Origin: Aquabacter spiritensis
Lineage (GTDB): Bacteria; Pseudomonadota; Alphaproteobacteria; Rhizobiales; Xanthobacteraceae
Reading direction: 5' to 3'
NCBI RefSeq assembly: GCF_004346185.1
Contig: NZ_SMAI01000001.1
Coordinates: 558,001-622,000, forward strand
DNA: 64,000 bases
Shown here: piece by piece, positions 45 to 6,781 of the stretch
Numbering within the stretch: position 1 is the stretch's first letter
Layout: every line of letters begins with the position of its first letter
Notes under the pieces: generated by a model
What the model saw: only the letters and a program-made list of their open reading frames with translations
The model's database searches: none
What the model was told of the DNA's origin: nothing
Program-made: the position numbers and the translations under genes

Positions 45-635
45 ATGGCGAACGAGCTTTCCCTGCGCATCGTCATCGTCGACGACAGCCCCGTCCGGGC
101 GGCCATCCTCAGCGAGGGGCTGCAGGAGGCGGGATTCCACAACGTGTTGCGCATCGAGGGGGTCAACAACCTGCTCGGGCGGATCTACGCCATCGATCCC
201 GACGTGATCCTGATCGACCTGGAAAATCCCAGCCGCGACACGATCGAGCAGATGTTCCAGATGAGCCGCGAGGTGAAGCGGCCGGTGGCGATGTTCGTCG
301 ACCAGTCGGACAGCGCGACCATCGAGGAGGCGATCGCCGCCGGTGTCGCCTCCTACGTCGTCGACGGGCTGCGCAAGGACCGGGTGCGGCCGATCCTCGA
401 GACCACGATCTCACGCTACCGCGCCTTCGCCCGGCTGCGCGAGGAATTGGAGGAGGCCCGCAGCCAGCTCGAGGAGCGCAAGCTCGTCGACCGCGCCAAG
501 CTGATCCTCATGCGGGCGAAGAATGTCGACGAGCAGACCGCCTACGGCCTGATCCGCCGGACCGCGATGAACGAGAAGAAGCGGCTTGCCGAGATCGCCC
601 AATCCATCATCACAGCCGCGGAGCTCCTGCGATGA
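45..635 (+). CDS. nasT: NasT nitrate-responsive ANTAR antiterminator
   Basis: 196 aa. Residues about 7-125 form a receiver-like domain (IVIVDDS start, acidic LIDLE strand), but the position of the conserved receiver lysine reads YVVDGL, so this is a pseudo-receiver, as is usual in NasT. Residues about 127-190 form a coiled coil plus the ANTAR helices (RAKLILM, EQTAYGLIRRTAM, EIAQSII, ELL). ANTAR proteins of this family bind paired hairpins in nascent RNA and prevent transcription termination. The 3' end overlaps the nasS start by ATGA. The likely target is the nrtA leader about 2.3 kb downstream. Known family behaviour: NasS sequesters NasT until nitrate or nitrite binds NasS. Confidence 0.93.
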   Translation: MANELSLRIVIVDDSPVRAAILSEGLQEAGFHNVLRIEGVNNLLGRIYAIDPDVILIDLENPSRDTIEQMFQMSREVKRPVAMFVDQSDSATIEEAIAAGVASYVVDGLRKDRVRPILETTISRYRAFARLREELEEARSQLEERKLVDRAKLILMRAKNVDEQTAYGLIRRTAMNEKKRLAEIAQSIITAAELLR

Positions 636-1765
636 GACGCCTCGCCATGGGCTTCATTCCCCTGACAGACGCCGCCGTTCTGATCGCCGCGGCGGAACGC
701 GGCTTCTCGATGGCGGAGGGGATCGAGATCGACCTGCACCGCGAGGTGTCCTGGGCGAACATCCGCGACAAAGTGAATGTCGGGCTGCTCGACGGCGCCC
801 ATATGCTCGGGCCGCTCGCCATTGCCTCCTCGCTCGGGCTCGGCCATGTGCGGGTGCCCCTGGTGGTGCCGTTCGCGCTGAACCTCAATGGCAGCGCCAT
901 CACCATCGCGCGCGGCGTCTATGAGGAGATGGGGGAGACGGGCGAAGACCTGTCGAGCGGCCTTGGTGCGGCGCGCGCGCTCGGAAAGGTCGTCCTGGCG
1001 CGCAAGGCCCAAGGGCGCGACCCGCTCACCTTCGCGGCGGTCTATGCCTTCTCCACCCATACCTATCTGATCCGGCATTTCCTCAAGGCCGGCGGCGTCG
1101 ATCCCGACCGCGACGTGCGCCTCGTGGTCGTCCCGCCGCCCTTCATGGCGGAAAGCCTGCGCAACGGCCTCATCCACGGCTTTTCGGTCGGCAGCCCGTG
1201 GAACAGCGTGGCGGTGGATGCGGATGTCGGACGGATCGCGGTGCTGGGCGCGGAGATTTTCGGCTGGGTCCCGGAGAAGGTGCTCGGCGTCCATGCCCGC
1301 TTCGTCAAGACCGAGCCGGACCTGCTGCGCCGCCTGGTGCGCGCGCTGCACTCCGCCGCGCGCTGGTGCGAGGATCCCGCAAACCACGAAGACCTCGCCC
1401 GTCTGCTGGGCGAGCCGCGCCATTTGAACCTTCCCGCCGACGTCCTGCGCCGCACGCTGGACGGCCGGCTTCACACCGCGCCGGGGGGCGCGCTGCGCGT
1501 CCATCCCGATTATCTGATCCTCCACCGCGACAATGCCAACCGGCCCTCGCGCGACCATGCGCTGTGGATCTACAGCCAGATCGTGAAGTCGGGCCAAGGC
1601 GAATGGACGCGCGATGCCGCCCGCGAGGCGGTCGGGGTCTACCGCCCGGATCTCTACGACGCCGCCGTCGGCCCGCAGCCGGAGCCCGCCGACCGGGTCC
1701 CCGACTGCGTCGCCACCCAGTTCGGCGAGACCTTCGATGCGGAGCGCTTTCTTCAGAACACGTAG
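632..1765 (+). CDS. nasS: NasS cytoplasmic nitrate/nitrite sensor (NrtA-like)
   Basis: 377 aa, starting at the ATG that overlaps the nasT stop codon. It is homologous to periplasmic nitrate-binding proteins: its opening GFIPLTDAAVLIAAAERGF aligns with GFIALTDAAPLFVAKEKG of NrtA in this window. It starts directly in the ligand-binding fold with no signal peptide, which fits a cytoplasmic sensor. By family knowledge NasS binds NasT and releases it on nitrate or nitrite binding, so it acts as the ligand-sensing half of the switch. The last 13 bases overlap the convergent outer-membrane protein gene. Confidence 0.92.
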   Translation: MRRLAMGFIPLTDAAVLIAAAERGFSMAEGIEIDLHREVSWANIRDKVNVGLLDGAHMLGPLAIASSLGLGHVRVPLVVPFALNLNGSAITIARGVYEEMGETGEDLSSGLGAARALGKVVLARKAQGRDPLTFAAVYAFSTHTYLIRHFLKAGGVDPDRDVRLVVVPPPFMAESLRNGLIHGFSVGSPWNSVAVDADVGRIAVLGAEIFGWVPEKVLGVHARFVKTEPDLLRRLVRALHSAARWCEDPANHEDLARLLGEPRHLNLPADVLRRTLDGRLHTAPGGALRVHPDYLILHRDNANRPSRDHALWIYSQIVKSGQGEWTRDAAREAVGVYRPDLYDAAVGPQPEPADRVPDCVATQFGETFDAERFLQNT

Positions 1766-2634
1766 TTGATCGTGACCGTAAGGGCCTGATTGTCCACCGT
1801 GCCGGAATAGGTTCCCGCCGACAGACCCGAAAAGGCGGTCGTCGGATAGACCGTGTCGAATTGGTTGGCGAACGTGTTCGTGCTGGTCGCCGAGGCTGTG
1901 TAGGAATAGCTCAGGTCCAGGAACCAGGACGGCGCGAAAAAATAGGTCACGCCCGCCATGGCCGTTGCGCCCCACACCCAGTTGGAGGCCGAGAAGAAAC
2001 CGGGCGTGCCGGAAACGTCGAAGCGGTGATCGAGCTCGGCGAACCCGATCAGCCCATTCATGCTGGCCGTGACCTTGGAGAGCGTCGGGCCGGCACCGCC
2101 ATAGACGAAACCCCGCCCGAACGAATAGCCGACCAGCGGCACGAGCGCGAATTGGTGCTCCAGGCTCATCTGATAGGAGCGCAACAGGTAATTGCCGTTG
2201 AAAGTGCCGGAGATCAGCCCGTCATACGAGCCGGCCTGCGGGATGAGGACATTGTCTTGCGCCCCGCTGACGCCGACCTGATTGTAGCTGAACTTGGCAC
2301 CCCACACCCAGGGGGTGCCCGCCACCGTGCGGTAGAAGCCGAGTTGAAGCGCGGGCGCAAGCGATGAATCCGTCCCGAGGTTCGGATAGGCCGAGCCGCC
2401 GGCCTGTCCCCGCGCGACCCAGTGTCCGAGCGCATAGACGTCGCTGATCCCGAACCCGAAAATATCCTGGTTCGGAAAGGTGGCGCCGTTGAACGCCCCG
2501 CCCGCCCCGATAAAGATGCCGTTGGCCGGCATGGCGCCGGATGCCTGTTGCGCCTGCTGTGCTTCCTGCGCCTGCGCGACGAGCGGCCAGGCTGCGAGGC
2601 AGATGCTTAAGACGATCGACCGTTTGCTCATCAC
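1753..2634 (-). CDS. Outer-membrane beta-barrel protein, possible nitrate-related porin
   Basis: 293 aa with a clear Sec signal peptide (KRS, hydrophobic core, cleavage near AQAQ), then many alternating short hydrophobic/aromatic strands rich in Gly, Tyr and Trp. The C-terminus is INYVF, the terminal phenylalanine expected for outer-membrane insertion. A Gly-Ala stretch near the start (GIFIGAGGAFNGATF) resembles small OmpA/OmpW-like barrels, but no family was recognised with certainty. A good ribosome site (GGGGAG) precedes the ATG. It is divergent from the nrt operon and has a sigma-54-like box just upstream, so it may let nitrate through the outer membrane; that role is inference. Confidence 0.75.
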   Translation of the reverse strand: MMSKRSIVLSICLAAWPLVAQAQEAQQAQQASGAMPANGIFIGAGGAFNGATFPNQDIFGFGISDVYALGHWVARGQAGGSAYPNLGTDSSLAPALQLGFYRTVAGTPWVWGAKFSYNQVGVSGAQDNVLIPQAGSYDGLISGTFNGNYLLRSYQMSLEHQFALVPLVGYSFGRGFVYGGAGPTLSKVTASMNGLIGFAELDHRFDVSGTPGFFSASNWVWGATAMAGVTYFFAPSWFLDLSYSYTASATSTNTFANQFDTVYPTTAFSGLSAGTYSGTVDNQALTVTINYVF

Positions 2635-2913: not shown

Positions 2914-2927
2914 ATATGTGTATTCCA

Positions 2928-2977
2928 GGCGCGGCCAACGATGTCCGCGCCAAGACATATGTCCCAATGACGGGGCA
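2928..2977 (+). promoter_or_regulatory. ANTAR-target two-hairpin RNA in the nrtA leader
   Basis: Hairpin P1 (2928-2951) has a 7-bp stem, one C-U mismatch, a closing C-G pair and the hexaloop AACGAT. Hairpin P2 (2960-2977) has a 6-bp stem and the hexaloop AATGAC. Both loops have A at position 1 and G at position 4, the defining bases of the ANTAR RNA motif known from NasR, NasT and EutV targets. The pair sits just upstream of an intrinsic terminator. NasT binding should stabilise it and allow read-through into nrtA. Confidence 0.85.
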
Positions 2978-2988
2978 CCCGCAGCAGA

Positions 2989-3038
2989 GCCGCTGACACC
3001 CGATGGCCGTAGGCCGTCGAGGAGTCTGCGGCTTTTTT
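2989..3038 (+). terminator. Intrinsic terminator in the nrtA leader (attenuator)
   Basis: A long hairpin pairs GCCGC (2989-2993) with GCGGC (3028-3032). It continues through GAC/GTC and CC/GG with two mismatches, and ends in an 8-bp stem CGATGGCC/GGCCGTCG around a GTA loop. Six T residues follow (3033-3038). The structure ends 42 bases before the nrtA start and follows the ANTAR hairpins, so it is a regulated attenuator and not an end-of-gene terminator. Confidence 0.88.
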
Positions 3039-3080
3039 CGTTTCGGGTCTCGTACGACTGGCGACCAACAGGGGAACAGA

Positions 3081-4442
3081 ATGACCGACGCTTCCGATCC
3101 CAAATCCGGCGATTCAAGGTCTGGCCCGGCCGCGATTCCGGCCGCATCGCTCTCCCGCCGCGCGCTGCTGAAGGGCAGTGCGGCGGCGCTCGGCACGGCG
3201 GCGGTGCTCGAAGCCGCCCGCATCGCCTTCCCGGGCGGCGTCCCGTCGGCCTATGCCGCCGAGGGTCCGGAGACCACGAAGGCGGTGCTCGGCTTCATCG
3301 CGCTGACCGATGCCGCGCCACTGTTCGTGGCGAAGGAGAAGGGGATCTTTGCAAAATACGGCATGACCGACGTGACGGTCGCCAAGCAGGCCTCCTGGGG
3401 CACCACCCGCGACAATCTCGTGCTCGGTGCGGAAGGCAACGGCATAGACGGGGCGCACATCCTCACCCCGATGCCCTATCTCATCTCGGCCGGCAAGGTG
3501 ACGCAGAACAACGTCCCGACCCCGATGTACATCCTCGCCCGCCTCAACGTGAACGGGCAGTGCATCTCGGTCGGCCAGGAATATCTCGACCTCAAGATCG
3601 GCCTCGACACCAAGCCCTTCAAGGCCGCGCTCGACAAGAAGAAGGCCTCCGGCAAGCCGGTCAAGGCGGCGATGACCTTTCCGGGCGGCACCCACGATCT
3701 GTGGATCCGCTATTGGCTCGCGGCCGGCGGCATCGACCCCGACAAGGACATCGAGACCATCGTCGTCCCGCCGGCCCAGATGGTGGCCAATATGAAGGTC
3801 GGCACGATGGACTGCTTCTGCGTCTGCGAGCCGTGGAACGAGCAGCTCATCCACCAGAAGATCGGCTACACCGCGCTCACGACCGGCGAGATGTGGAAGG
3901 ACCATCCCGAGAAGGCGTTCGGCATGCGCGCCTCCTACGTGGACAAGAATCCCAAGGCCGCCATGGCGCTGCTCAAGGCGGTCATGGAAGCCCAGATGTG
4001 GTGCGAGAAGATGGAGAACCGCGCCGAAGTCGCGGCGATCTGCGCCAAGCGCCAATGGATCAACGTGCCGGTCGCCGACGTCACGGACCGCATGCTCGGC
4101 AAGTTCGACTATGGCACCGGCCGGGTGGTCGAGAAGAGCCCGGTCATGATGAAATACTGGGCCGACGCCGCCTCCTATCCCTATCAGAGCCACGACCTCT
4201 GGTTCATCACCGAGGACCAGCGCTGGGGCAAGTTCGAGCCCGACTACGACGCCAAGGCGCTGATCTCCAAGGTCAACCGCGAGGATCTCTGGCGCGAGGC
4301 GGCGAAATCCCTGAACGTGTCGGCCGCCGACATTCCGACCTCGACCTCGCGCGGTCTCGAGACCTTCTATGACGGCAAGGTCTTCGACCCCGCCAATCCG
4401 TCGGCCTATCTCGCGAGCCTCGGCATCAAGCGCATCGCCTGA
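3081..4442 (+). CDS. nrtA: NrtA nitrate ABC transporter substrate-binding protein
   Basis: 453 aa. The chosen ATG follows AGGGGAACA; an earlier in-frame ATG at 3003 lies inside the terminator and is rejected. The N-terminus carries a twin-arginine signal (SRRALLKGSAAALGTAAVLEA, cleavage near AYA), so the folded protein is exported through Tat. The body is CmpA/NrtA family: GFIALTDAAPLFVAKEKG, the GTTRDNLVLG segment, then C-lobe motifs such as PPAQMVANMK. In the periplasm it would deliver nitrate (nitrite is possible) to NrtB/NrtD. First gene of the operon after the attenuator. Confidence 0.93.
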   Translation: MTDASDPKSGDSRSGPAAIPAASLSRRALLKGSAAALGTAAVLEAARIAFPGGVPSAYAAEGPETTKAVLGFIALTDAAPLFVAKEKGIFAKYGMTDVTVAKQASWGTTRDNLVLGAEGNGIDGAHILTPMPYLISAGKVTQNNVPTPMYILARLNVNGQCISVGQEYLDLKIGLDTKPFKAALDKKKASGKPVKAAMTFPGGTHDLWIRYWLAAGGIDPDKDIETIVVPPAQMVANMKVGTMDCFCVCEPWNEQLIHQKIGYTALTTGEMWKDHPEKAFGMRASYVDKNPKAAMALLKAVMEAQMWCEKMENRAEVAAICAKRQWINVPVADVTDRMLGKFDYGTGRVVEKSPVMMKYWADAASYPYQSHDLWFITEDQRWGKFEPDYDAKALISKVNREDLWREAAKSLNVSAADIPTSTSRGLETFYDGKVFDPANPSAYLASLGIKRIA

Positions 4443-6352: not shown

Positions 6353-6781
6353 ATGCGTCCCAGCCAAGTGGAACTTATCCAGTCTTCGTTCGCGAAGGTC
6401 GCCCCGATGTCCGAACAGGCGGCCGGGCTGTTCTATGGCCGGCTGTTCGAGATTGCGCCGGAGGTGAAGCCCATGTTCCGGGGCGACATCGCCGAGCAGG
6501 GCCGCAAGCTGATGGGGACCCTCGCCGTCGTGGTGAAGGGCCTGTCCAACCTCGATGCGGTGGTACCGGTGGCGCAGGTCCTGGCGAAGCGCCACGTCGC
6601 CTACGGCGTGAAGGACGAACATTATGCGCCGGTGGGCGCGGCGCTGCTCTGGACGCTGGAACAGGGTCTCGGCCCCGATTTCACCCCCGAGGTGAAGGAC
6701 GCCTGGACGCAGGCCTATGGCCTCCTCTCCACCGTCATGATCGCCGCCGCGGCCGAGCCCGTGCCGGCCGAGCCGGTTTGA
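6353..6781 (+). CDS. Single-domain bacterial haemoglobin (Vitreoscilla type)
   Basis: 142 aa three-over-three globin. Haem-pocket residues can be placed by comparison with Vitreoscilla haemoglobin: Tyr28 (B10), Phe42 (CD1), proximal His81 in KRHVAYGV, and Tyr91 in EHYAPVG. It lacks the C-terminal FAD/NAD reductase domain of flavohaemoglobins. A strong ribosome site (CGGAGG) precedes it. It lies inside the nitrate operon, between the transporter and the reductases. The likely job is scavenging nitric oxide formed as a by-product of nitrite reduction, or binding oxygen; electrons might come from the neighbouring FAD protein. Confidence 0.9.
   Translation: MRPSQVELIQSSFAKVAPMSEQAAGLFYGRLFEIAPEVKPMFRGDIAEQGRKLMGTLAVVVKGLSNLDAVVPVAQVLAKRHVAYGVKDEHYAPVGAALLWTLEQGLGPDFTPEVKDAWTQAYGLLSTVMIAAAAEPVPAEPV

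Follow-up and report, generated by a model that had tools for sequence, protein, structure and literature searches.

The closest described counterparts of the leader reported here are antitermination systems built on ANTAR-domain proteins, for which we draw on passages of PMC3369931, PMC8934654, PMC3795266, PMC5424462, PMC6759348, and PMC8164766. In the EutV targets that these passages describe, one hexaloop hairpin (P1) recruits the protein and another (P2) is embedded in the terminator. The G at loop position 4 (G4) is the only base-specific contact, and A1, G4, and the spacing of the hairpins all matter; a structure of the EutV ANTAR domain with RNA has been solved. Linkers in eut leaders are given as 5-12 nucleotides, and induction was lost when the eutP linker was cut to 3, while curated actinobacterial ANTAR targets are given a range of 2-25. 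According to the passages on Paracoccus, nitrate splits NasS from NasT, which then binds the nasA leader; free NasT looked roughly hexameric, and a leader hairpin mutant no longer grew on nitrate.

Genes of this type occur in the window (the whole 64,000-nucleotide stretch of DNA that was analysed). The original prediction placed nasT upstream in the same window, and Pfam bears this out: a gene at 45-635 on the forward strand encodes a pseudo-receiver-like response regulator with an ANTAR RNA-binding domain (ANTAR, 7.7e-17; Response_reg, 1.4e-10). A domain search of the whole genome yields this NasT as the single ANTAR match; here and in the motif searches below, genome-wide refers to one genome of 5.16 Mb. 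NasT aligns with EutV (6wsh) over 6-190 (E 9.6e-19) and with the C-terminus of Klebsiella NasR (E 1.1e-7), and by our reading of the alignment counterparts of EutV Tyr164, Met172, and Lys143 appear to be kept. A nasS-like gene (632-1765, forward strand; Pfam NMT1_2, 5.3e-69) overlaps nasT by 4 nucleotides. Its product is an NrtA-family candidate nitrate sensor, has PDB relatives 8w9m (the NrtC C-terminal domain) and 2g29 (NrtA), and consists of binding domain from its very start, with no leader peptide seen. The arrangement, in which an ANTAR response regulator adjoins a cytoplasmic NrtA-like sensor, is that of NasS-NasT systems.

The first gene of the operon that would be controlled is nrtA (3081-4442, forward strand; Pfam NMT1_2, 8.9e-110), encoding a nitrate ABC-transporter binding protein. 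It is followed, in order, by permease, ATPase, globin, oxidoreductase, nitrite/sulfite-reductase-type, flavoprotein, and molybdopterin oxidoreductase genes. The globin gene (6353-6781) lies within the nitrate operon and encodes a single-domain protein, possibly acting on nitric oxide from the reductase, as has been proposed for a Bradyrhizobium cluster. Between nasS and the nrtA leader lies a divergent gene (1753-2634, reverse strand) for a protein of 293 amino acids that is outer-membrane-like by eye and that gave no match in a Pfam search, whereas many relatives have nasS directly 5' of the leader. The relatives point to a member of the Xanthobacteraceae: the nearest named nrtA loci belong to the MAG Rhizobiales bacterium 32-66-11 (92%) and Xanthobacter sp. 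YC-JY1 (87%). A record titled Streptomyces sp. AcH 505 scaffold00019 (L010) carries an nrtA 80% identical to that of the window and an identical leader type, and is probably a contaminant contig.

A complete NasT riboregulator had been proposed for positions 2928-3038, comprising two ANTAR hairpins and then a terminator. Reading and folding confirm both A1/G4 hairpins, on the forward strand like all leader features described here. The promoter-proximal one, HP1 (2928-2951), has hexaloop AACGAT at 2937-2942 and a stem of 7 bp (GGCGCGG/CCGCGCC), a C-U mismatch, and a C-G closing pair. HP2 (2960-2977), the probable recruitment hairpin, has 6 bp and hexaloop AATGAC at 2966-2971. Both are drawn from folds and covariation. 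The strong intrinsic terminator is also where it was predicted: by folding it occupies about 2986-3035, or 2986-3038 counted to the end of T6 (3033-3038), and is separated from the nrtA ATG (3081) by 42 nucleotides (3039-3080). The kind of element is very likely right, but the anatomy was incomplete, since a third hairpin and a sigma-54-type promoter had been overlooked.

The third hairpin, HP3 (2982-2995), reads CAGC-AGAGCC-GCTG, with a 4-bp stem and an A1/G4 loop (AGAGCC, 2986-2991). It sits inside the terminator, and its loop and 3' arm form part of the terminator's ascending arm. The three A1/G4 hexaloops are closed by stems of 7+1, 6, and 4 bp, where at least two hairpins with stems of at least 3 bp were required, and they are joined by linkers of 8 (HP1-HP2) and 4 (HP2-HP3) nucleotides. 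The 136-nucleotide leader folds 5.2 sd better than its dinucleotide shuffles, none of 200 being as good.

The promoter came to notice through an end-to-end match of the Rfam narK RNA (RF03032), whose 5' end resembles a -24/-12 promoter; this match, over 2900-2965, scores 17.0 bits (E 0.33) and falls below the gathering threshold of 43.2 bits. The site TGGCACGGAACTTGAA (2899-2914) is predicted from its sequence to be a sigma-54-type promoter, the name following the sigma-54 consensus, tested as TGGCAC-N5-TTG[CA]. Such a site occurs within 250 nucleotides upstream in 69 of 80 loci, the window included, compared with 0.75 in shuffles (one further locus of the 81 had too little upstream sequence). 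A search of the 1.6 kb that extends into nasT turned up no sigma-54-like site and no P2-like motif. A simple promoter and terminator scan missed both the sigma-54-type site and the terminator. Transcription is predicted to start at about 2925, just 5' of HP1, which would then form the 5' end of the RNA.

Folding of the growing transcript suggests how these parts might work together. In minimum-energy folds, HP2 and HP3 are present from 3' end 2998 to 3026, and HP1 is folded across the same range apart from 3010 and 3014, where it gives way to a long-range pairing. Once the 3' end reaches 3034, the terminator has taken the place of HP3, while HP1 and HP2 stay. HP3 and the terminator are thus mutually exclusive in silico. 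HP3, at roughly -5 kcal/mol including its flanks, is weak, and enforcing it within 2924-3040 costs 10.7 kcal/mol (-49.1 versus -59.8), so something must hold it.

HP1 and HP2, in contrast, do not overlap the terminator and fold together with it, so that mutual exclusion cannot be the means by which the originally proposed pair, acting by itself, antiterminates. One could still suppose that these two act on RNA polymerase or on the terminator in some other way, being the two stablest A1/G4 hairpins and having an 8-nucleotide linker that fits the eut range. However, the described ANTAR systems, in the passages available, have a hexaloop embedded in the terminator, a feature of HP3 and not of HP2, and HP3 both overlaps the terminator and is strongly conserved. 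We regard action by HP1 and HP2 without mutual exclusion as highly improbable, and a model of those hairpins only was set aside because neither overlaps the terminator. With HP3 left out, the leader shows no visible antitermination by mutual exclusion, and in this respect its anatomy is corrected here.

The arrangement is rare by chance. Three non-overlapping A1/G4 hexaloop hairpins, as found in 2915-3000, arose in none of 5000 dinucleotide shuffles, 9 of which gave at least two. Among 12784 positions of 86 nucleotides on both strands of the 64-kb window, two hold three hexaloops, and both cover the leader. We built a model of HP2 and HP3 (R1) from 13 training sequences, one of them the window's; in the window's own genome it finds one strong site, which is the leader (E 4.8e-9, with the window in the training set), the next having E 0.22. 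The weaker R1 sites (E 0.22 and worse in the genome; L083-L086) were inspected by eye and discounted, as they did not show the arrangement. At gathering thresholds Rfam gave no match in the leader or the window, and permissive matches other than narK (microRNAs, assorted sRNAs, and a Y RNA) were taken as chance.

These results also bear on whether the element is an ordinary terminator, or a set of chance hairpins, with no NasT control. No gene ends here: the gene at 1753-2634 runs in the opposite direction and nasS ends 1.2 kb upstream. The terminator instead sits between a promoter-like site and nrtA, and the three hexaloops exceed chance and are conserved with their G4, which makes this explanation very hard to credit. 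The location between nasTS and nrtA, the sole ANTAR protein of the genome, and the single strong R1 site make a NasT/ANTAR leader the best reading. We therefore conclude that the element is, with high probability, a sigma-54-initiated transcription-attenuation leader through which NasT controls the nitrate-assimilation operon. Leaders for NasT/ANTAR antitermination are a known kind, of which the form with three hexaloops is a variant.

All three hairpins are kept in Xanthobacter/Azorhizobium-like leaders, although these share ancestry, so that the counts given here are not independent events. Across 13 leaders (12 distinct), pairing in HP2 reaches 96.7%. Three of its pairs differ in both partners, and the pairing is lost when the partner is slid. 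HP3 is almost invariant in the same leaders, which makes it conserved and gives no evidence from covariation. All 19 Xanthobacter/Azorhizobium-like leaders carry A1 and G4 in the loops of both HP2 and HP3.

The position of HP1 is more equivocal. We see about an even chance that it is a stem-loop at the 5' terminus, shielding the end of the mRNA or acting as a spacer in the leader, with HP2 and HP3 forming a canonical dual hexaloop by themselves. Its predicted place at the extreme 5' end of the transcript fits that role, and so does its loop position 1: of 19 leaders, 10 have A there and 9 have G, even though A1 matters in the ANTAR targets studied. Also, none of 26 other leaders in the family has an A1/G4 hexaloop with at least 4 pairs at the place of HP1. 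In 18 of these 26 leaders outside the Xanthobacter/Azorhizobium-like group, the survey's automatic choice, which took another hairpin for HP2 in some leaders, gave an HP2 with A1/G4. The HP1 hexaloop is also missing from leader L040. Set against this are A2 and G4 of the HP1 loop, which are found in 19 of 19 leaders while the stem letters vary and pairing is kept. The pattern used demanded R-A-Y-G, but a loop-blind search, with identical leaders counted once, picked such a loop anyway in 18 of 19. Across 17 distinct rows the HP1 stem is 81.7% paired, compared with 26.8 to 49.3% when slid, with four pairs changed on both sides. On one measure, further pair types, its covariation was not above that of shuffles (291/500), which favours the structural role.

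Beyond these leaders, R1 was searched in 149 genomes of the window's family and found in 78 at E<=0.1 and in 51 at E<=1e-3. An ANTAR gene is present in 49 of those 51, compared with 100 of 149 overall (hypergeometric 4.7e-9), and the two exceptions are assemblies that are 79% and 58% complete. An ANTAR match is absent from 49 of the 149 genomes, and among the 100 that have one, 51 show no R1 at E<=1e-3, so the HP2-HP3 form is not universal in the family. Across the 289 genomes of the window's class, R1 is found at E<=0.01 in 13, counting the window's own, and is mostly weak. Fifty loci were fetched from the family, and 44 of them have a sigma-54-like site, a P2, and a T-run by pattern (L114, L158, L160, L163, L165, and L166 do not); within the stretch fetched, an NrtA-like gene lies downstream in 41 of the 44 and a NasS-like gene upstream in 34. 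Among the 67 distinct leaders that combine a sigma-54-like site with P2, identical ones being counted once and the row for L066 probably reflecting a spurious second motif match, a downstream complement of at least 5 nucleotides to the P2 loop or 3' arm is present in 62 and missing in 5, and a T-run is present by pattern in 60 and missing in 7. Of 68 upstream regions, 40, mostly from Bradyrhizobium, have a GTGC-N3-GCAC palindrome about 115-120 nucleotides 5' of the sigma-54 site, compared with 0.32 in shuffled ones; the palindrome is possibly an activator site and was not found in the window.

Some leaders appear to make do with fewer loops. Of 39 Bradyrhizobium-like nrtA leaders (such as L014, L028, and L072) that have a sigma-54 site and no P2, 32 keep one A1/G4 hexaloop 33-34 nucleotides from the promoter start. 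It is typified by GACGCC-ATTGAA-GCCGTC and, judged by its sequence, is possibly a NasT site with a single hexaloop. Outside the family, the unrelated-looking loci L119 (AATGAT, AATGGC, and AACGAC) and L139 (AACGGC three times) each have three tandem A1/G4 hexaloops.

The narK motif was reportedly described by Weinberg et al. in 2017. Our literature searches, whose coverage did not extend to that original description, found no paper naming RF03032, no function described for it, and no description of an ANTAR leader with three hexaloops. Among 398 Pseudomonadota genomes, 21 have an RF03032 match, above the cut-off in 16 of them; in the window's class 4 of 289 genomes have one, and none reaches the cut-off. 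All 21 genomes have an ANTAR match, compared with 155 of the 398 (hypergeometric 1.0e-9), and, among the ANTAR matches listed, at least 28 of 36 RF03032 matches lie within 10 kb of an ANTAR domain, at least three of them at 28 nucleotides. Eight downstream genes were identified by Pfam as MFS (NarK-type; three), NMT1_2 (NrtA/NasS-type; four), and molybdopterin oxidoreductase (one), and the single upstream gene checked in this way is Response_reg plus ANTAR.

Of 33 RF03032 loci (L116-L148), 29 have a sigma-54-like site and 31 a T-run. Two A1/G4 hexaloops 18-48 nucleotides apart are found in 25, with a complement to P2 in 19 of these, and are not found at that spacing in the other 8; shuffled regions yield such a pair in 1 of 1320. 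The narK RNA and the leader thus share a sigma-54-type site, A1/G4 hexaloops, a T-run, nearby nitrate genes, and genomes that encode ANTAR proteins. They differ in that the RF03032 consensus pairs the first hairpin alone, most of its loci have two hexaloops, and the leader scores below its cut-off. We suggest that RF03032 is probably a NasT-type antitermination leader together with its sigma-54 promoter, and the window's leader looks like an RNA that works in the same way and is not to be filed as a member.

This comparison also speaks to HP1. The first A1/G4-type loop lies about 33-42 nucleotides from the start of TGG in RF03032 leaders, Bradyrhizobium-like leaders, and the window, which counts against a purely structural hairpin. 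This spacing suggests that HP1 is the counterpart of P1 in other lineages and that HP2 is the extra loop. All three loops might be NasT sites, the first recruiting the protein on emergence, the middle one relaying it, and the third blocking the terminator. Three sites would be consistent with the Paracoccus passages, in which free NasT appears close to a hexamer, but we hold this reading only tentatively and below even odds. If it is true, RF03032 would combine a sigma-54 promoter with a NasT target, and Bradyrhizobium-like nrtA leaders would keep only the first loop.

For the NasT-controlled leader we propose the following mechanism, in which nitrate sensing, NasT binding, and read-through are modelled on Paracoccus NasST and Enterococcus EutV. 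RNA polymerase would start near 2925 under nitrogen limitation, as the promoter type implies. When nitrate is lacking, NasS would hold NasT, HP1 and HP2 would fold, HP3 would be transient, and the terminator would invade it, stopping transcription at T6. When nitrate is available, freed NasT would bind the hexaloops. By analogy, HP2 (perhaps also HP1) most likely recruits the protein and HP3 antiterminates; with HP3 held, the ascending arm of the terminator would be unavailable, and nrtA and the following genes would be transcribed. Least certain in this scheme is what HP1 does, whether it serves as one more NasT site or as a hairpin at the 5' end. Points against the mechanism are the 4-nucleotide linker between HP2 and HP3, which is below the eut range, and the short, costly stem of HP3; the simple scan's failure to detect promoter and terminator and the patchy occurrence of the form in the family also weigh against it.

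Relatives with one, two, and three hexaloops form a natural series on the number of ANTAR loops and the order of their use, a point that the EutV structure leaves as a model. The proposed reading of RF03032 as a NasT target also gives that family a specific, testable function. Among known systems, NasS-NasT of Paracoccus denitrificans (nasA) and Bradyrhizobium resembles the window's locus in having nasT-nasS by nitrate genes, leader hairpins, and an ANTAR-bearing NasT, although the Paracoccus leader has two named hairpins (HI and HII) in the passages available, whereas this one has three A1/G4 hexaloops. Klebsiella NasR-nasF likewise combines nitrate-responsive ANTAR antitermination with an assimilation operon, but NasR is described there as sensing nitrate within the same protein, while sensor and RNA-binding protein are separate here. 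Enterococcus EutV and eutP share a homologous ANTAR protein and the order of a recruitment hexaloop followed by one embedded in the terminator. Unlike eutP, the window's leader has an extra upstream hexaloop, a 4-nucleotide linker before the embedded loop, and a sigma-54-type promoter, and its control would presumably depend on release from NasS instead of phosphorylation.
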